IMG/VR virus record: IMGVR_UViG_3300048590_000223
Location: 1 to 22,970 of that record
Direction: 5' to 3' (one strand)
Source: a virus
Length of the DNA stretch: 22,970 nucleotides
Part shown: piece after piece, positions 1,147 through 11,082 of the stretch
Layout: each line of letters opens with the position of its first letter
Numbering within the stretch: position 1 is the first letter of the stretch
Translations under genes and position numbers: made by a program
The notes under the pieces: generated by a model
The model's database searches: none
The model's input: the letters and a program-made list of their open reading frames with translations, nothing else
What the model was told of the DNA's origin: nothing

Positions 1147-1856
1147 GTCTAGCCTGGGGTCCAAGACTGACCGGCGGATCTCTCTCGTGGGGTGCGAGAG
1201 AGGCCAGCACGACCGAGGGCGTCATCAACGGCTCGGCCGAGGTGCTGTCGTCGGTCGAGCGCGACCTGGGGCTGTTCTGGACCGTCCACGGTGGGGTCGA
1301 GTCGGACCTGTCGCTGCTGTGGCAGGTCGAAGCGGATCCGGTGACGGCCGTCGAGTCGGACCTCACGCTGACGTGGAACGTCATCACCGAGGCGGGCACG
1401 TCGGTTGAGCGCGACCTCGTGCTGCTCTGGCAGCGCGGCGGATCGGTCACGACTTCGCTGAACCTGCTCTGGCAGGTCGGCCCGTCGCTCGACGTGGCGG
1501 GGGCGGCACCTGTGCGCCGGCCGCTCAAGCACCCGGGCTGGGAGCGCAAGCAGGCGATGGACCAGCTCGCGCGCGAGCGGGCGATGGAGCGCAGCATTCG
1601 GGCGAAGCTCAGTCCCGAGCCGGTCCAGACCAATCCCGCGCTCGAGGTGCAGCAGCCTCCGCAGCGCAATACGACGCAGATGGCCGCGAGGCTGGTGGCC
1701 GCCTCGCCCGTAGCCGCCGCAAGGCAGCGCGCGCTCGAAGCCGGCATTGCAGCACAACGCGCGCGGGTCGAGATTCAAAAACTGCAGCCCGAACTGCTGG
1801 CCGCGCGACAGCGAGCGAGTTATCGCGTGATCGAGCAACTGTTGAGGCAAGCCTGA
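1143..1856 (+). CDS. Virion protein with tryptophan beta-repeats and helical C-terminus
   Basis: A 237-residue protein with two parts. Residues 37-112 hold five repeats of the pattern VExDLxLxW. The key tryptophans are at 46, 60, 78, 96 and 110 (spacings 14, 18, 18, 14), each the end of a predicted beta strand. Residues 120-237 are charged and helical, rich in A, R, E and Q, and contain a PGW motif at 131-133, RERA at 144-147 and an IR pair at 152-153. The same C-terminal signature recurs in the gene at 6140-6688, so the two look like paralogues with different N-terminal modules. The gene overlaps its upstream neighbour by ATGA and its downstream neighbour by TGATG. The function is probably a structural or fibre-attachment role; no enzyme motif is visible. 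Confidence 0.8.
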   Translation: MSLAWGPRLTGGSLSWGAREASTTEGVINGSAEVLSSVERDLGLFWTVHGGVESDLSLLWQVEADPVTAVESDLTLTWNVITEAGTSVERDLVLLWQRGGSVTTSLNLLWQVGPSLDVAGAAPVRRPLKHPGWERKQAMDQLARERAMERSIRAKLSPEPVQTNPALEVQQPPQRNTTQMAARLVAASPVAAARQRALEAGIAAQRARVEIQKLQPELLAARQRASYRVIEQLLRQA

Positions 1857-3196
1857 TGCCGCTGGTGATGCACGCGACGAGTCCGGTGAGGCGGGCGAAA
1901 GCCGCGCCGATTGTGGCTGAATACGCTGGCTACACACCGACGATCTACGCCGCGCCTGCCGATGTTGGCAGTGGCGACGGGTCGAGTGAAGCGAATGCGA
2001 TGGACCTCGCAACAGCCATGACCAATGCGACGGCTGGGGACATCGTTGGTTGCATTCCAGGCACGTACATCGGAACCCCAAGCGGTACGCGATGGATCAC
2101 GATGTTCAAGTGCCCGAACAGCGGCACATCGGGGTCGCCAATAGTGTTCGTTGCTAAGTACCCGGCTGCGGCGAATCTATCCAATGAAGCGAACTGGTCC
2201 GAACTGCGGTCTGATAATACTTCTGTCAAGAATGCGGTGATTGGCAGTGGTGAGGGTCAGGACTATCAGTACTTCATCGGCTTCTACATAGACTTCATCT
2301 ATGTTCCGCCGCGCCCGTCGAATGGCACTGTAGTCGTCGGCGGGGCTACCGAAGTGATTGGCACGAGGATCGAACAATTCGTGTTCGACCAGACGGAGCA
2401 GGTCGATTCCGACAACTACAACTGCATTTTCATTCAGAACACCGATGGCGTGGTGGTGAAGAACTGCGTGTTCCGTAACTCATCGGGGAGCGGGAATCAC
2501 AACGTATCGTCAATTACGACCTACGGTGCGCTGAACACAGTCATCGAAAACAACACTTGGACGAGCGCCAGCCGCGGCGTTTACATCAAGGGCGACGATC
2601 AGGGCGGCACACGGTTCAACTCGGCCACGATCCGCTACAACCTGTTCGATGTTTCGGGCGGCGCAGTAGACATTACGACAGTCGATTCCGTGGAAGCGGC
2701 AGGCGTCTACAACAACCTGTTCGTCGGTGGCGCGAAAGGCGTGACCTACGAGAACAGCGCCGCGAGCCTGATGCGGAATGCAAAGATCGAACGCAACACC
2801 TTTGTTAATCACACAGTACAGTCTGTGTATGCCGAATCTGGTCTTTCACTGACTGGATGCACGTTTAAGGACAACGTGGTTGCGCTGCTGTCTTCAAGCG
2901 CGTCGAAGATGGGGATATTCGCCTCCGCAGTGACCAATCTGGATTGTGATTACAACCTGTACTACGAATCCGGTGCGTCTGTGCAGTTCGATTTGCTCGG
3001 CTCGCCCTACACCGGCCTTGCTGCATGGGCGTCCGCTTCAAGCAAAGACGGGAACTCAGACGAGGCAGATCCGCAGTTCGTAGATTCCGGTGCCGGCAAC
3101 TATCGCCGCACCGGGTCAGGCGATACAGGGTCAAGTACGGGCGGTATTCGTGGCTGCTATGTCTCGGGCAGCGAGCAAATCGGAGTGACTGTGTAA
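1856..3196 (+). CDS. Right-handed beta-helix tailspike-like protein
   Basis: A 446-residue protein whose text from about residue 30 onward has the look of pectate-lyase-like parallel beta-helix proteins: short strands separated by N/G turns, with recurring N-x-x-F/I-x-N patterns such as NCIFIQNTDGVVVKNCVFRN, VIENNTW, YNLFDVSG, VYNNLFVGG, IERNTFVNH and FKDNVVAL. The N-terminus (GSGDGSSEANAMDLATA, then GDIVGCIPGTY) matches the usual entry to such domains, where a repeated region follows an ASP-like cap. Phage proteins of this fold are often host-polysaccharide-binding or depolymerising tailspikes. No catalytic residues can be assigned by eye. The start is the ATG of TGATG. Base composition is lower in GC than downstream genes (33 of 60 at 2161-2220, 29 of 60 at 2821-2880), suggesting recent acquisition. 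Confidence 0.8.
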   Translation: MPLVMHATSPVRRAKAAPIVAEYAGYTPTIYAAPADVGSGDGSSEANAMDLATAMTNATAGDIVGCIPGTYIGTPSGTRWITMFKCPNSGTSGSPIVFVAKYPAAANLSNEANWSELRSDNTSVKNAVIGSGEGQDYQYFIGFYIDFIYVPPRPSNGTVVVGGATEVIGTRIEQFVFDQTEQVDSDNYNCIFIQNTDGVVVKNCVFRNSSGSGNHNVSSITTYGALNTVIENNTWTSASRGVYIKGDDQGGTRFNSATIRYNLFDVSGGAVDITTVDSVEAAGVYNNLFVGGAKGVTYENSAASLMRNAKIERNTFVNHTVQSVYAESGLSLTGCTFKDNVVALLSSSASKMGIFASAVTNLDCDYNLYYESGASVQFDLLGSPYTGLAAWASASSKDGNSDEADPQFVDSGAGNYRRTGSGDTGSSTGGIRGCYVSGSEQIGVTV

Positions 3197-4486: not shown

Positions 4487-6136
4487 ATGCATCCCGTTTA
4501 TTACGTCCCGGCTGGAGATGTTCTCCCTATATTTTTTAGCACCTACGACGGGGGGACTGGTGCTTCGGTGACCATGACTGGGTTGGCGGTGACAGATATA
4601 GAAATCTATCGCGACGGCAGCACCACGCAACGCGCAAGCGATGCTGGATATACGCTGCTCGACACGGACGGCATCGATTTCGACGGCCTCACCGGCATCC
4701 ACGGGTTTTCCATCGACACGGGCGACAACACCGACGCCTCGTTCTACACCGTTGGATCGTGGTTCCACGTCGTCGTCTCGGCGGTGACGGTGGACGCGCA
4801 GGCGGTCAGCTTCGTCGCTGCGGCGTTCCGCATCATGGCGGCCGAAGGTGTCGCGGGCGTGCCGGATGTCAACGCAACGCACTGGAACGACACGGCGGTA
4901 ACGACCCCGCCAGCGGTCAACGTCACGCAATTGAGCGGTGACAGCACGGCGGCAGACAACGCCGAGGCATTCTTCGACGGCACGGGCTATGCGGGAACGA
5001 ACAATGTAATCCCGACCGTGACAACGCTGACGGGGCACACGGCACAGACGGGCGATGCGTATGCTCGGCTCGGCGCACCGGCAGGGGCCAGCGTCAGCGC
5101 GGACGTGGCGGCGATCAAGGCCGAAACCGCGACCATCGTGGCCGACACGGGTGAATTGCAGACGGATTGGGCCAACGGTGGGCGTCTTGACCTGCTGCTC
5201 GACACGGCTGCGGCGGGCGGGGCTGCGGCTTCCTACGGCATCGTCCACGAAGGCACGGCGCAGTCGGCAACCGGCACGACGCTGGTGCTGGCGTCCGGGG
5301 CTGCGTTTGCCAATGACGAACTAATCGGGGCCACGATCCTGATTACGGGCGGCACTGGCGTCGGGCAGGCGCGCATCATCACCGATTACGTCGGCTCGAC
5401 GGACACGGCGACGGTCGATACGTGGACGACGACGCCGAGCGGGACGATCACTTACAAGGTGTTCGGAACACCGCCAGCTTCGGCCACGGCGGTTCCGGCG
5501 GTCAATCTCGTACAGGTGGCAGGTTCAACCACGGATGTCTCGGCGCTCGCCACGAACGTCGCGGCGATCCTCGTGGACACCGGCACGACGCTCGACGGCA
5601 AGCTCAACACGATTGACGACTTCCTCGACACGGAAATCGCCGCGATTTTGGCCGACACGAACGAGCTGCAAACCGACTGGGCGAACGGTGGTCGGCTCGA
5701 CTTGCTGCTTGATGGCGCGGCCAGTGCAGGTGATCCGTGGACGACGGCGCTCCCCGGCGCGTACGGGGCTGGCACGGCGGGCTATCTGATCGGCACGAAC
5801 CTCGACGCCACGGTTTCCTCGCGTGCCACGCAGACGAGCGTCGATACGGTGGACAATCTGATCGATACCGAGGTGGCGGCAATCAAGTCGGTAGTCGATG
5901 ACATTCTCGTAGACACCGGCACCACGCTCCCGGCGACGCTCGCGACCATCAGCGGATACGTCGACACCGAGGTGGCGGCCGTGCTGGCGGCGGTGGATAC
6001 GGAAGTCGCGGCGATCAAGGCCAAGACCGACTCGCTGACGTTCACGGTGGCCGGTCAGGTGGATGCGAACATCCAGTCTATCAACGACGTGGCACTGACG
6101 GGAGACGGTTCAGCGACCCCGTGGGGCCCGGCGTAA
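4487..6136 (+). CDS. Long fibre-like virion protein with coiled repeats
   Basis: A 549-residue protein with an AGGAA ribosome site (4474-4478) eight bases before ATG. Residues 1-125 form a beta-rich head: VYYVPAGDVLPIFFSTYDG, TDIEIYRDG, GIHGFSIDTGDN. The rest alternates beta segments with alanine/aspartate-rich helical repeats of the type DTEVAAIKA, AAILVDTGTTL, TLATISGYVDTEVAAV, suggesting a trimeric fibre shaft. The segment ELQTDWANGGRLDLLLD occurs twice, at residues 223-239 and 393-409. The middle also carries paired VNVTQLSGD and VNLVQVAGS segments. No enzyme motif is seen. The protein has the typical look of an adsorption or baseplate-like accessory fibre. GC is low at the first ~70 bases and rises afterwards. 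Confidence 0.82.
   Translation: MHPVYYVPAGDVLPIFFSTYDGGTGASVTMTGLAVTDIEIYRDGSTTQRASDAGYTLLDTDGIDFDGLTGIHGFSIDTGDNTDASFYTVGSWFHVVVSAVTVDAQAVSFVAAAFRIMAAEGVAGVPDVNATHWNDTAVTTPPAVNVTQLSGDSTAADNAEAFFDGTGYAGTNNVIPTVTTLTGHTAQTGDAYARLGAPAGASVSADVAAIKAETATIVADTGELQTDWANGGRLDLLLDTAAAGGAAASYGIVHEGTAQSATGTTLVLASGAAFANDELIGATILITGGTGVGQARIITDYVGSTDTATVDTWTTTPSGTITYKVFGTPPASATAVPAVNLVQVAGSTTDVSALATNVAAILVDTGTTLDGKLNTIDDFLDTEIAAILADTNELQTDWANGGRLDLLLDGAASAGDPWTTALPGAYGAGTAGYLIGTNLDATVSSRATQTSVDTVDNLIDTEVAAIKSVVDDILVDTGTTLPATLATISGYVDTEVAAVLAAVDTEVAAIKAKTDSLTFTVAGQVDANIQSINDVALTGDGSATPWGPA
5153..5203 (+). repeat. First copy of 17-codon repeat inside the fibre-like gene
   Basis: It encodes ELQTDWANGGRLDLLLD. 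A second copy with identical amino acids lies at 5663-5713. Comparing codons by eye, 12 of 17 differ, all synonymously, so the peptide has been conserved after an old duplication. Confidence 0.9.
5663..5713 (+). repeat. Second copy of 17-codon repeat inside the fibre-like gene
   Basis: Identical 17-residue peptide to the copy at 5153-5203, 170 residues further on, with 12 synonymous codon differences. Confidence 0.9.
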
Positions 6137-6139
6137 CCG

Positions 6140-6688
6140 ATGGCCGTATGGGCGAGCGGCGCGTGGGCTTCCGGCGCGTGGGCGTCGGGAGCCTGGGCCG
6201 CGGGCGCGGCGAACTTCGATTGCTGGGCCGATGGCGCATGGTCGCCGGGCGCGTGGGCGGTCGGCGCATGGGGTGAATCCGAAACCCCACCCGTCGTCGT
6301 TGTTCCGCCCCCGTCTCCCGGCGGCGACGATCGCCCGCCCGGCTGGAGCAAGCGCCGCGCGAAGCTGAAGCTCAATCGTGAGCGCGCGCTCACTGAGCAG
6401 ATCCGTGACATCTATCGCGAACTCACCGCGGACCCCGAGGCCGCCGCACGGGTCGAGGCGCTGCTCGCCCCGGTGGTGCCGCCCGCCCCAGCGATGGGCG
6501 AGTCCGAAGTGGCTCGAGTGGCCGCACTCGAGGCGCGCGCCGATGCGCTGCGACGGCGGGCCGATGCGATGGACGCGCAGGCGATCGAGGTCGAGATCGC
6601 GCTGCGGGTCATGTACGGCGAAATGCAGGACCGCCTGATGGCCGACGACTGGGAAGCCATCCAGGTGCTGCTCTCTGAGGTGCTGTAG
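6140..6688 (+). CDS. Virion protein with tryptophan pentad repeats and helical C-terminus
   Basis: A 182-residue protein. Residues 4-44 hold a pentad repeat W-A-x-G-A, with tryptophans at 4, 9, 14, 19, 29, 34, 39 and 44. Position 24 in register is alanine. A proline/valine linker (47-63) leads to PGW (67-69), a basic stretch KRRAKLKL, then RERA (80-83), LTEQIRDIYRELT (84-96), and helices rich in A/R/E to the end. The C-terminal signature is shared with the gene at 1143-1856, and the IRDIYREL stretch resembles the repeated motif of the downstream scaffold. No enzyme motif is seen. The gene stop overlaps the next start (TAGTG). Likely a virion or assembly protein; precise role unknown. Confidence 0.8.
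   Translation: MAVWASGAWASGAWASGAWAAGAANFDCWADGAWSPGAWAVGAWGESETPPVVVVPPPSPGGDDRPPGWSKRRAKLKLNRERALTEQIRDIYRELTADPEAAARVEALLAPVVPPAPAMGESEVARVAALEARADALRRRADAMDAQAIEVEIALRVMYGEMQDRLMADDWEAIQVLLSEVL
6149..6271 (+). repeat. Tandem 15-bp coding repeat (W-A-x-G-A pentads)
   Basis: Eight in-register pentads with one interruption, encoding the tryptophan ladder at the N-terminus of the 6140-6688 protein. The period is five residues throughout, with tryptophan replaced by alanine at one register position (residue 24). Confidence 0.85.
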
Positions 6689-7065
6689 TGCCTTTGTACG
6701 AATGGTCATGTGGGACGTGCGGCCGTCACGAGGAGGGCTTCAGGACGGTCGCCGAGCGCCACGACGCGCCGGCCTGCCACGGGCAGCGCATGGGCATCGT
6801 GATCTCGGTCGCGGGCGTGCAACCCGATCTGCCCGGCTACCAGAGCCCCACCACGGGGCGCTGGATTGAGGGGCGGGCTGCGCGCCGGGATGACCTGAAG
6901 CGCTCGGGGGCGCGCCCGTGGGAAGGGTTTACCGCCGAGAAACAGGAGGCGCAGAAACGCCTCGCCGAAGCTGAAGCACGCGCGGATCGAAAACTCGACA
7001 CCGCCGTGCGCAGCGCTTATCACCAACTGCCGCCCGCCAAACGACGGGCACTGGAGACGCCATGA
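6688..7065 (+). CDS. Small FmdB-like zinc-ribbon protein upstream of the scaffold
   Basis: A 125-residue protein with a GTG start (6688-6690) that overlaps the previous TAG. It opens MPLYEWSCGTCGRHEE, a treble-clef/zinc-ribbon start as in FmdB regulators, with C8 and C11, and a second half-site at C30-H31. The middle segment GYQSPTTGRWIEGRAARRDDL is of a type I associate with small phage proteins found just before scaffold genes. The C-terminus is a coiled helix of E/K/R and A. The function is unknown: it could be a DNA- or protein-binding accessory of head assembly. The overlap with the scaffold start (ATGA at 7062-7065) suggests translational coupling. Confidence 0.75.
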   Translation: MPLYEWSCGTCGRHEEGFRTVAERHDAPACHGQRMGIVISVAGVQPDLPGYQSPTTGRWIEGRAARRDDLKRSGARPWEGFTAEKQEAQKRLAEAEARADRKLDTAVRSAYHQLPPAKRRALETP

Positions 7066-8111
7066 CCGAGGAAACCCTCGTAGACGCCACCCCGACCGAC
7101 ATCACGCCGGCCGCCGTTACCCCCGAGCCCGTCGCGCCGGTTCAAGCCGAGCCGTCGATGGAGGAGACGATTCGCGAGACGTACCAGAAGCTCACGAATC
7201 CCGCTCCGACCCGCGAGCGTGGGCCGGATGGCAAGTTCCTGCGCACCGAACCAGCCGCAGCGCCCGGCGACACGGACGGGGTGGCGGAGGCGCAAGAGAT
7301 TGCCGCCGCCCCGCCTCCCGAGCCGAAACCGTGGGAACAGCCCCCGAACACCTGGAAGAAGGAAACCGCGGCCCAGTTCGCCGCACTCCCCGAGCCGGTC
7401 AAGCAGGAAATCCACCGCCGCGAGGAGGACTTCCACAAGGGCATCGCGCAGTACCGGGATGCCGCCGCATTCGGGCATTCGATGTTCGAGGACATCAGCC
7501 CGCACTTCGACACGATCCGCCAGTTGGGTGGCACGCCCAAAGAGGTGGTGCGCGAGGTGATGGGTGCGTGGCGCGCGCTCGCCACCGGCAGCCCTGAACA
7601 GAAACGGTCCACTCTGTTGCAACTCGCGCAGGGCTACGGTATCAGTCTCAACGAACTGGCCGACCCGCGTTACCGCGGCGAGCAGCCGGCTCCCGAACTT
7701 GCCCCCGTTCTACAACGCCTCGGGCAGCTCGAGCAGACGATTACCGAAAGCCAACGCGCCCGCGAAGAGGCCGAACATGCCGAGCGTGTGTCGGCCGCTC
7801 AGAAGTTCCTGAGCGACCCGAAGCACGAGCACATGGACACCGTCTTCGAGGACGTGGTGGCACTGGTCAGGGCTGGACGCGATCCCGAGCAAGCCTACGA
7901 ACAGGCGATCTGGGCGCACCCTGAAACGCGCGCGAAGCTGATGGCGAAACAAGACGCCGAGCGACGTGCGCGTGAGGCGGCCGAGGCCGCCGCCGCCAGA
8001 AAGGCCGCCGCCGTCAACGTGCAGCGCCGCGGGACACCCCCGGTCGCCGCCAAGCCCGGCACGATGGAGGACACCATCCGCGAGACGTACCGCAGCCTGC
8101 ACAACGGCTGA
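7062..8111 (+). CDS. Capsid scaffolding protein
   Basis: A 349-residue acidic, helical, proline-rich protein placed directly before the major capsid gene, the expected scaffold position. The N-terminus (1-30) is proline- and threonine-rich. The core (100-300) is coiled, with long runs of E, R, A and Q. No transmembrane or catalytic motif is seen. A near-identical helix motif appears at both ends: SMEETIRETYQKL at 32-44 and TMEDTIRETYRSL at 334-346. Scaffolds commonly bind the coat protein through a terminal helix, so the second copy is a good candidate. The start is ATG overlapping the previous stop. The 48-base gap to the capsid gene contains the perfect palindrome GTGGCGCCAC (8122-8131). 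Confidence 0.85.
   Translation: MTEETLVDATPTDITPAAVTPEPVAPVQAEPSMEETIRETYQKLTNPAPTRERGPDGKFLRTEPAAAPGDTDGVAEAQEIAAAPPPEPKPWEQPPNTWKKETAAQFAALPEPVKQEIHRREEDFHKGIAQYRDAAAFGHSMFEDISPHFDTIRQLGGTPKEVVREVMGAWRALATGSPEQKRSTLLQLAQGYGISLNELADPRYRGEQPAPELAPVLQRLGQLEQTITESQRAREEAEHAERVSAAQKFLSDPKHEHMDTVFEDVVALVRAGRDPEQAYEQAIWAHPETRAKLMAKQDAERRAREAAEAAAARKAAAVNVQRRGTPPVAAKPGTMEDTIRETYRSLHNG
7157..7185 (+). repeat. 29-bp repeat, N-terminal scaffold motif copy
   Basis: It encodes the MEETIRETY motif. It matches 26 of 29 bases with 8063-8091, the mismatches all at codon third positions. Confidence 0.85.
8063..8091 (+). repeat. 29-bp repeat, C-terminal scaffold motif copy
   Basis: Second copy of the scaffold motif, encoding MEDTIRETY just before the stop. 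26 of 29 bases match the copy at 7157-7185. Confidence 0.85.
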
Positions 8112-8159: not shown

Positions 8160-9149
8160 ATGGCATCACCCGGTCAGTCCAGTCTGTTCACGACGTTCAC
8201 CGAACTCGTGACCACGACCTACCGCAACCACAAGAAGGAAGTTGCGGACAACGTCTCGAACCACAACGCGCTGTTCCGGCGCCTGACGCAGAAGGGCAAG
8301 ATCCGTCGCGAGGACGGCGGCCTGTCGATCGTCGAGGGTCTGGAGTACGCCGAGAACTCGACGTACACCCGCTACAGCGGCTATGACCCGCTCAACGTCG
8401 AAGCGGTCGACGTGCTGTCGGCTGCGGAGTATCCGTGGCGCCAGGTGAGCGTGAACGTCGCGGCCTCGGGCCTCGAGATCCGCTCCAACTCGGGCGAGAA
8501 CCGCATCGTCAACCTGGTCAAGACGAAGATCAAGAACGCGCAGAAGTCGATGGCGAACGGACTGGCCGAGGACCTGTACTCGGCGGGCTCCCTGTCGAAC
8601 CAGATCGGCGGCCTGCAGAGCATCATCGCGGATGCCGGCACGGGCACGGTGGGCGGCATCGACTCGTCCACGTTCACGTTCTGGCAGAACGTCGTGCAGT
8701 CCGCCGCAGCGCCGTTGCAGGGCGGCTCGGCGATCACGCCGGGGTCCACGACGATCGAGTCGCTGATGCTGCCCCTGTACCTGCGCCTCACGCGCGGTGC
8801 GGATCATCCTGACCTGATCGTGATGGACGAGACCTACTTCACGTTCTTCGAGCAGTCGCAGACCAGTCTCAAGCGCTACGCGCCGGACGATGATGGTCAG
8901 GCGGGCATGCTGGCGATGAAGTACAAGAACGCCGACGTGTTCCACGACAGTTCAGCGAGCGGCATTTCCGCGGCTCACGGCTACTTCATCAACACCGACT
9001 ACCTGTCGATGGTGGTGCATCAGGACGCCGACATGGAGATCATGCCCGAGCTGCGCTCGATCAACCAAGACGCGGTGGTGGTTCCGGTAATCTGGCAGGG
9101 AAATCTCTGCTGCTCGAACCGGAAGCTCCAGGGCGTGATGAAGGCATAA
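8160..9149 (+). CDS. Major capsid protein
   Basis: A 329-residue protein directly after the scaffold with a strong ribosome site. The N-terminal helix (TELVTTTYRNHKKEVADNVSNHN), the early loop IRREDGGLSIVEGLEYAENSTY, the central AAEYPWRQVSVNVAASGLE, and the C-terminal strand WQGNLCCSNRKLQGVMKA are the pattern I associate with the HK97-fold capsid family found in many podovirus-like phages (Bordetella BPP-1-like and relatives). The order scaffold, coat, decoration agrees. No protease or cleavage site is seen, consistent with scaffold-assisted rather than protease-matured assembly. Confidence in the role is high; the exact subfamily is a recollection and not checked. Confidence 0.93.
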   Translation: MASPGQSSLFTTFTELVTTTYRNHKKEVADNVSNHNALFRRLTQKGKIRREDGGLSIVEGLEYAENSTYTRYSGYDPLNVEAVDVLSAAEYPWRQVSVNVAASGLEIRSNSGENRIVNLVKTKIKNAQKSMANGLAEDLYSAGSLSNQIGGLQSIIADAGTGTVGGIDSSTFTFWQNVVQSAAAPLQGGSAITPGSTTIESLMLPLYLRLTRGADHPDLIVMDETYFTFFEQSQTSLKRYAPDDDGQAGMLAMKYKNADVFHDSSASGISAAHGYFINTDYLSMVVHQDADMEIMPELRSINQDAVVVPVIWQGNLCCSNRKLQGVMKA

Positions 9150-9705: not shown

Positions 9706-11082
9706 ATGAGCCGACCGACCACGACCGTGGTACAGCTTCCGTATAGGAACCCGCACGCCACGGCCCCGCTCATCCTGCCGGTGCTCGTCGTGTCGAACAC
9801 GCCCGACGAAGACATCGAGCGCAACATCGCCGCCAACAGCGCACTCGACCTCGCGTGGATCGGCCCACGCCCGGCGCACGATCGGGTGGCGATCATGTGC
9901 GGTGGCGGGCCGTCGATTGCGGACCATCTGGACGAAATCCGCAGCACCGAGGGGACGCTGTTCGCGATGAACGGCGCGTCGCGGTTCCTGCACGAACACG
10001 GCATCACGGTCGATTACCAGGTGATCGCCGATGCCAAACTGGAGACGGCGGCGCTGGTGGACCCTGATGCGGGAAGCCACCTGTTCGCCTCGCAAGTAAA
10101 CCCCGAGACGCTCGCTCGCGCGCCCGATGCAACGCTGTGGCATCTCTGTGTCGATGAGACGATGGATCGATTGTTTCCCGTGGAACGTCGGCGCGCGGGC
10201 GGGTACTCGCTGATCGGTGGTGGAGCTTCGGTTGGCAATTCCGCGCTCTGCCTCGCCTACGTGATGGGCTACCGGCGCTTCGAGTGCTACGGGTACGACT
10301 CCAGCCACCGCAACGACGCGAGCCATGCTTACGAGCAGGACATGAACCGCTTCATTCCCACGGTCGAAGTGGAATGGGCCGGCGAGACGTATCTTTCCTC
10401 GGTCGCCATGAAGGCGCAGGCCGAGAAGTTCCAGATCACCGGGCAGGCGCTCGAGCAGGAAGGCTGCACGATCAACCTGCACGGCGACGGCCTGCTGCCC
10501 GCGATGTGGAACACCGACGCCTCGAACCTGACCGAGTGCGACAAGTACCGCCTGATGTGGGCGACCGACAGTTATCGCTGCGTTTCCCCCGGCGAGAAGG
10601 CGGTGCCGCTGATCCTCGCGCACTTGAAGCCCGCGGGGCTGGTGCTCGACTTCGGCTGCGGGACGGGGCGCGCCTCGCTGGCGCTCGCGAAGGCGGGCCT
10701 CGACGTGCTGCTGATCGACTTCGCGGACAACTGCCGCGACGAGGAAGCGATCGGCCTGCCGTTCCTCGAGTGGGATCTCACCCGCCCGCTGCCGCCGCAC
10801 GCGCACTACGGGATCTGCTGCGATGTCATGGAGCACATCCCGACCGAAGACGTGCCGGCCGTGCTGGCGAATATCGCGATGGCGGCCGACAACGTGTTTT
10901 TCCAGATCAGCACCGTGCCTGACGACATGGGCGCGCTGATCGACGAACCGCTGCACCTGACCGTGCGACCGCATGAATGGTGGCACGAGCAGTTGTCGCG
11001 GTTCGGTTCCGTGACCTGGGAGCAAACGCTGCCGGGCGCGTCGTGTTTCATTCTGAGGAGTTCCACATGCCCATCGCACTGA
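9706..11082 (+). CDS. DUF115/MptE-like domain fused to a SAM-dependent methyltransferase
   Basis: A 458-residue protein with two enzyme-like domains. Residues 60-240 resemble the DUF115 / MptE-like family: IMCGGGPSI (63-71), MNGASRFLHEHGI, then YSLIGGGASVGNSALCLAYVMGYRRFECYGYDSSH (167-201). Such domains are known from archaeal 6-hydroxymethylpterin diphosphokinase and from bacterial flagellin glycosylation loci, and are annotated in some phage proteins. Residues 300-445 are a class I methyltransferase: LDFGCGTGRASLALAKAG (314-331, SAM loop), VLLIDFADN (335-342), and YGICCDVMEHIP (368-379). It lies just behind the capsid terminator and before assembly genes. No structural role is apparent; substrate unknown. 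It overlaps the following gene by 16 bases. Confidence 0.85.
   Translation: MSRPTTTVVQLPYRNPHATAPLILPVLVVSNTPDEDIERNIAANSALDLAWIGPRPAHDRVAIMCGGGPSIADHLDEIRSTEGTLFAMNGASRFLHEHGITVDYQVIADAKLETAALVDPDAGSHLFASQVNPETLARAPDATLWHLCVDETMDRLFPVERRRAGGYSLIGGGASVGNSALCLAYVMGYRRFECYGYDSSHRNDASHAYEQDMNRFIPTVEVEWAGETYLSSVAMKAQAEKFQITGQALEQEGCTINLHGDGLLPAMWNTDASNLTECDKYRLMWATDSYRCVSPGEKAVPLILAHLKPAGLVLDFGCGTGRASLALAKAGLDVLLIDFADNCRDEEAIGLPFLEWDLTRPLPPHAHYGICCDVMEHIPTEDVPAVLANIAMAADNVFFQISTVPDDMGALIDEPLHLTVRPHEWWHEQLSRFGSVTWEQTLPGASCFILRSSTCPSH

Follow-up and report, generated by a model that had tools for sequence, protein, structure and literature searches.

Matching helix motifs at the two ends of a putative phage scaffolding protein evolve in concert and covary in charge with the capsid spine helix

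How a scaffolding protein places the coat subunits of a phage head is a long-standing question, and one that is hard to see into because scaffolds are mostly disordered in procapsids. The locus described here raises it in a particular form. In the stretch of viral DNA that was analysed (the window, 22,970 nucleotides), the protein encoded directly before the major capsid protein (MCP) carries one short helix motif twice, near its start and at its very end. What would a single chain do with two such ends? The features concerned are the following, all on the plus strand.

7062..8111, +: putative internal head scaffolding protein, 349 aa; open reading frame (ORF) directly 5' of the MCP gene
7155..7193, +: N-terminal motif copy SMEETIRETYQKL, residues 32-44; isolated helix 33-45 in the model (sequence, AlphaFold2)
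7359..8018, +: helical core of the scaffold, residues 100-319 (about), between two low-confidence tethers (AlphaFold2, scaffold alone)
8061..8099, +: C-terminal motif copy TMEDTIRETYRSL, residues 334-346; isolated helix 335-348 in the model (sequence, AlphaFold2)
8160..9149, +: MCP, HK97 fold, phrog_9953 (Mx8-type major head protein) (PHROG E=8e-81; Foldseek to HK97-fold capsids)
8487..8540, +: MCP residues 110-127, first part of the spine helix; candidate docking site for both motif copies (charge covariation, model)

We call ORF 7062-8111 a putative scaffold, a name given from its position, its composition and its helical model. As in scaffold genes, it lies directly upstream of the MCP gene, with a gap of 48 bases between its end and the MCP start. 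The scaffold-then-MCP order is the same in all annotated relatives that were fetched, with the portal upstream where it is annotated; no portal was recognised in the window. In annotated phages found via their MCP, the protein preceding the MCP has 260-400 residues and is mostly labelled hypothetical. The window ORF has no family match in Pfam, PHROG or NCBIfam, and in a distant relative (L019) the protein at the scaffold position has a match at 1e-9 to phrog_3927, 'head scaffolding protein'. A match to a curated family is an annotation aid for scaffolds and not a defining property of them. Modelled alone with AlphaFold2, the protein has the elongated, helical shape with flexible termini that is found in scaffolds, with long helices at 111-154, 214-250 and 287-319 and low-confidence ends. 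A Foldseek search with this model gave no match and no solved relative. The protein does not belong to the P22 gp8 type, as the predicted model has a single terminal helix and not a helix-turn-helix, and phage searches with the scaffold and with the MCP returned no P22 match.

The MCP places the locus in the Mx8-type head module. Its match to phrog_9953 covers residues 11-327, and it is 36% identical to the Mx8 MCP. The longest helix of its model, 113-139, corresponds to the spine helix of the HK97 fold.

Several neighbouring genes are worth recording in their own right. A small ORF at 6688-7065, which begins MPLYEWSCGTCGRHEEGF and is FmdB-type zinc ribbon-like, shares four bases with the beginning of the scaffold gene, and the ORF before it (6140-6685) starts with tandem WASGA repeats (MAVWASGAWASGAWASGAWAAGA). 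Further upstream, 4487-6136 encodes 549 aa with repeated DTGTTL / DTEVAAIKA-like units and no family match, possibly a fibre or coiled structural protein, and 1856-3196 a right-handed beta-helix protein of the NosD-like kind (PF05048), which may be an enzyme or fibre associated with the tail. The ORF at 9706-11082, lying amid the head and tail genes, fuses an MptE-like domain (PF01973) to a methyltransferase domain (PF13489). The product of 12190-13926 matches phrog_5107, 'amidase', at 5e-96; relatives have at the same position a gene annotated as packaged-DNA stabilisation, head-closure or neck protein, and the 'amidase' label looks wrong.

A preliminary description of this DNA had noted the same helix motif near the start and at the very end of the scaffold, with coding DNA identical at 26/29 positions, and both observations hold. 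The copies occupy residues 32-44 and 334-346, the second stopping three residues short of the C-terminus, and the best 29-base match between them is indeed 26/29 (7156-7184 vs 8062-8090). The best 13-mer comparison of the N- and C-terminal ends has a BLOSUM score of 49, z about 8 against shuffles. When a profile of the motif was scanned over the 25 ORFs of the window, the two sites reached 35 and 31 bits, against 11 for the runner-up, and the motif was found in none of the other window proteins. The DNA identity follows from the similarity of the proteins, because codon agreement is no higher than codon usage predicts: where the amino acids agree, 5/8 codons of the window pair agree (expected 4.6), and over all homologues 135/338 synonymous codons agree against 144.8 expected from codon usage. 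A recent DNA duplication or gene conversion is thereby ruled out.

For a comparison across relatives, homologues were collected through MCP-alignment scans, giving 395 usable scaffolds, 261 of them non-redundant. Relatives whose scaffolds are 71% and 45% identical retain both copies. Nearly all relatives have the C-terminal copy, which aligns throughout, with the consensus [ST]-hydrophobic-[DER]-[DE]-[TA]-[IL]-x-x-[AT]-hydrophobic. The N-terminal copy was searched with a profile made from the C motifs of each protein's relatives, its own C motif left out; it was found in 137/260 (z>3) to 172/260 (z>2), roughly 53-66%, and the same profile found 10-11 in internal regions at z>3. Among distant relatives the motif varies from phage to phage, yet the two ends of each protein resemble one another, as in L420 (PAKSPREAVERAL/PSNSPREALQKAL), L310 (EDDIRAAMAEVSG/EDDIRAAFQEVAG) and L099 (TFEDTMSEAFDNI/SWEETMSKAYDQV). 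Between a third and half of the homologues have an N copy that is degenerate or cannot be recognised: in one large group it is degenerate (e.g. DIESAVDEVSGGL) and in others absent, so two-ended binding would not be essential everywhere. Homologues had been proposed as a check on the pair, which recurs in distant relatives; loss of one copy without other change was to count against the idea, and the clades with a degenerate N copy go part of the way there. In L009, L011 and L088-L102 the N copy has turned into a motif of its own, roughly D-[IM]-x-[SA]-A-V-x-x-[IV]-x-x-G-L-G-F, and the C copy is canonical.

The two ends are most alike within a protein. The N-C score is 26.5 within the own protein vs 18.6 with other clades, which corresponds to a centred own-protein excess of 7.71 (permutation sd 0.8, p=5e-5, 31 MCP clades); with six clades only, p=0.002. 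Internal segments compared with the C-terminus give an excess of -0.18 to 0.72. A smaller set analysed earlier, in which registers were fixed, gave an excess of 4.8 (p=2e-4), which dropped to -0.7 to 2.8 when the register was rotated. Internal segments, register rotation and shuffles together rule out composition bias as the cause of the likeness. One ancient duplication followed by drift would predict no preference for the own copy, so the excess speaks against that history as well. It is scarcely credible that the ends form an ordinary pair, be it of unrelated helices with good caps in a compositionally biased protein or of a trivial recent duplication: the motif does fit the helix-capping box [ST]-x-x-[DE], and shuffled ends, where composition alone acts, still reach an excess of 0.9 to 2.05, but the observed 7.7 is register-specific, the controls lie near zero, and the level of codon agreement rules out a recent copy. 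From these comparisons, the copies evolve in concert without DNA copying. They therefore very probably share a partner, and the simplest reading of the sequence pattern is selection on both copies for the same one.

Which partner this might be does not emerge from similarity. Partial Mantel tests on similarity matrices did not separate MCP and portal, as motif similarity tracks both that of the portal and that of the MCP (partial correlations 0.275 and 0.205), and a similarity scan for the best MCP window gave no clear site. Charge was therefore analysed. Over 130 sister pairs, the net charge of the C motif anticorrelates with that of MCP 110-127 (r -0.40 to -0.47, family-wise p 0.0002-0.0006), and as controls the net charges of the linker beside the motif, the scaffold core and the portal show no correlation (p 0.66-0.99). 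For the N motif, r is -0.23 to -0.29 at the same segment (targeted one-sided p 0.03-0.05); its strongest negative correlation falls at MCP 110-127 in two of three pair sets, in a full scan that is not significant. The net-charge correlation is flat in the window's own large clade (r -0.05), and the signal thus comes from other clades.

Single residues give a sharper picture. Among the homologues, position 3 of the C copy and MCP residue 121 carry opposite charge in 205 cases and like charge in 5; for position 3 of the N copy the counts are 117 and 1. Such counts are clustered by descent, so correlated-evolution models (Pagel-type tests) were fitted on an MCP tree built without residues 105-130, with 25 MCP columns of variable charge. 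For C3 the top three columns are 125, 121 and 118 (LRT 24.0, 21.7 and 16.6), about one face of a helix. For both C7 and C11 the top column is 113 (LRT 26.9, 88% complementary, and LRT 38.6, 87% complementary). N3 likewise has 125 (LRT 28.6) and 121 (LRT 16.2) at the top; N7 and N11 with MCP 113 are weaker (LRT 11.3 and 16.1), and N11 has a non-complementary association with MCP 22 (LRT 16.8). For the C copy, 45 scaffold-core and 28 portal columns served as controls and gave an LRT of at most 15.3.

In simulations of an independent motif the observed LRT was reached in 0/59 runs for C3-121 (maximum 7.5) and in 0/60 for C11-113 (maximum 19.8); for N3-121 only five simulations were usable. Few events can sway tests of this type, and MCP 121 switches about four times by parsimony. 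Sister pairs were counted as well, with 15 opposite and 3 alike for motif 11 vs MCP 113, and 8-10 opposite and 2 alike for motif 3 vs MCP 121; the pattern therefore does not rest on one event. As several motif positions were examined, single-pair p-values are a guide, and in these sequence comparisons the weight is carried by the agreement of independent motif positions on one MCP helix. We infer that the C copy and, on a weaker signal, the N copy have the first half of the MCP spine helix as their partner. The order of the pairing (3 with 121/125; 7 and 11 with 113) implies antiparallel packing.

Two other uses of the motif can be weighed against this. In one, the C copy binds the coat and the N copy mimics it for another purpose, taking the same coat site at one stage only, as a competitive release switch, or serving as a portal anchor. 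Such a division of labour would fit the way in which motif similarity tracks portal similarity, given above, and the more frequent loss of the N copy; in P22, moreover, release of the scaffold has been linked to its N-terminal region, and the portal is contacted by a loop at the C-terminal end (PMC12005531). We nevertheless consider it unlikely, because the charge of the N copy covaries with the same MCP residues, 121/125, as that of the C copy, and no portal column rises above an LRT of 15.3 where the C copy was tested. The idea of a start-end regulatory pair, offered in the preliminary description, found no support of its own. In the other use, the end helices would be self-association elements pairing between scaffold chains, their likeness that of a homotypic interface. 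A homotypic contact would also give two concerted copies, and the P22 and SPP1 scaffolds do oligomerise; yet this leaves unexplained the charge swaps with the MCP spine helix, which rank top among the 25 variable MCP columns, and there is no charge complementarity with the scaffold core. It appears quite improbable.

A structure model of the two proteins together was also made. AlphaFold2 was run on the in-frame scaffold-MCP stretch, with two stops taken as residues for modelling only and no read-through claimed. The fusion is predicted as an HK97-fold capsid plus isolated motif helices, and confidence in the motif helices is no higher with the MCP (N-copy blocks about 67/57 fused vs 82/71 alone).

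We suggest that the ORF encodes the internal scaffold of an Mx8-like head module and that this protein is bivalent, with an identical coat-binding helix at each end. This is the best explanation of a recurrent pair that evolves in concert without DNA copying and covaries in charge, after correction for phylogeny, with the MCP spine helix; we would put the probability of both parts together at roughly 0.72. The scaffold would be a rod, with a helical and probably self-associating core from which two disordered tethers extend. Both tethers carry the same capped amphipathic helix at their tips, and this helix would grip the spine helix of the MCP along its amino half. A single chain could then tether two coat subunits as an intramolecular double hook, presumably holding both at the same time. 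The earlier suggestion that one scaffold could contact two coat subunits is thus supported, by the evolutionary evidence of recurrence, concerted evolution and charge covariation. Tethering would raise the local concentration of coat and link neighbouring capsomers during procapsid formation, and expansion may destroy the sites and free the scaffold, by analogy with the bending of the spine helix in SPP1 (PMC6813328). Physical binding, its orientation, simultaneous binding by both ends and the role in assembly and release are what we infer from these patterns.

Solved scaffolds have one coat-binding end per chain, and according to a recent structural paper the scaffolds compared there have their coat-binding regions at the C-terminus (PMC12005531). 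The coat-binding helix is C-terminal in 80alpha and CpmB (PMC5644958) and in P22 (PMC9965877, PMC12005531), and N-terminal in SPP1 and phi29 (PMC6813328). The 80alpha scaffold binds coat through an 11-residue amphipathic helix plus a hook at its C-terminus, its coat:scaffold interface and that of CpmB have been mapped, and CpmB dimers straddle adjacent capsomers (PMC5644958). The present protein resembles the scaffold of Staphylococcus phage 80alpha and SaPI1 CpmB (PMC5644958) in its short amphipathic helix at the very C-terminus, which here would bind coat. However, those proteins have one coat-binding copy per chain instead of two, so two hooks need a dimer, and they touch the coat chiefly at its N-arm helix and in the A-P cleft (RIIK hook), while the covariation here points to the spine helix.

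In SPP1, scaffold density lies on the spine helix of the MCP at its amino end, where mutations interfere with assembly in the presence of scaffold, and the spine helix bends on scaffold release (PMC6813328). The amino end of this helix is the probable site here too, and 'double hooks' have been proposed to bridge capsomers in SPP1 (PMC6813328); the hook of SPP1 gp11 is, however, modelled at the N-terminus only, with two hooks per dimer and not per chain. P22 gp8 shares the terminal helix element, coat-binding in P22, on a helical scaffold encoded between portal and coat genes (PMC12005531, PMC9965877), but has only a C-terminal helix-turn-helix, with contact mainly to the coat N-arm; comparison of its ends (13-mer BLOSUM vs shuffles) gave no N-C similarity (z -0.3). 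T7 gp9, whose gene also directly precedes the coat gene, has no N-C pair by the same measure (z -0.4). Encapsulin cargo targeting peptides, likened here by description only, are short terminal peptides that tether an internal protein inside an HK97-fold shell (PMC11202242), although they carry cargo and not an assembly scaffold.

Terminal coat-binding helices are thus already known. In the open-access literature we found no report of a scaffold with the same motif at both ends, and what appears new is the presence of two like copies at opposite ends of one chain, evolving together.

It is more likely than not that this extends to a whole superfamily of phage scaffolds whose members have the coat-binding helix in duplicate, at either end of one chain, with concerted evolution alongside the MCP spine helix keeping the two alike. 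The monomer would then be a bivalent cross-linker of coat subunits, and the two-ended design would tune assembly and release. The motif can aid the recognition of unannotated scaffolds, and the covariation provides an interface at residue level for testing, motif 3 with MCP 121/125 and motif 7/11 with MCP 113. If the reading is true, its two matching ends would make such a scaffold bivalent with no need for a dimer.
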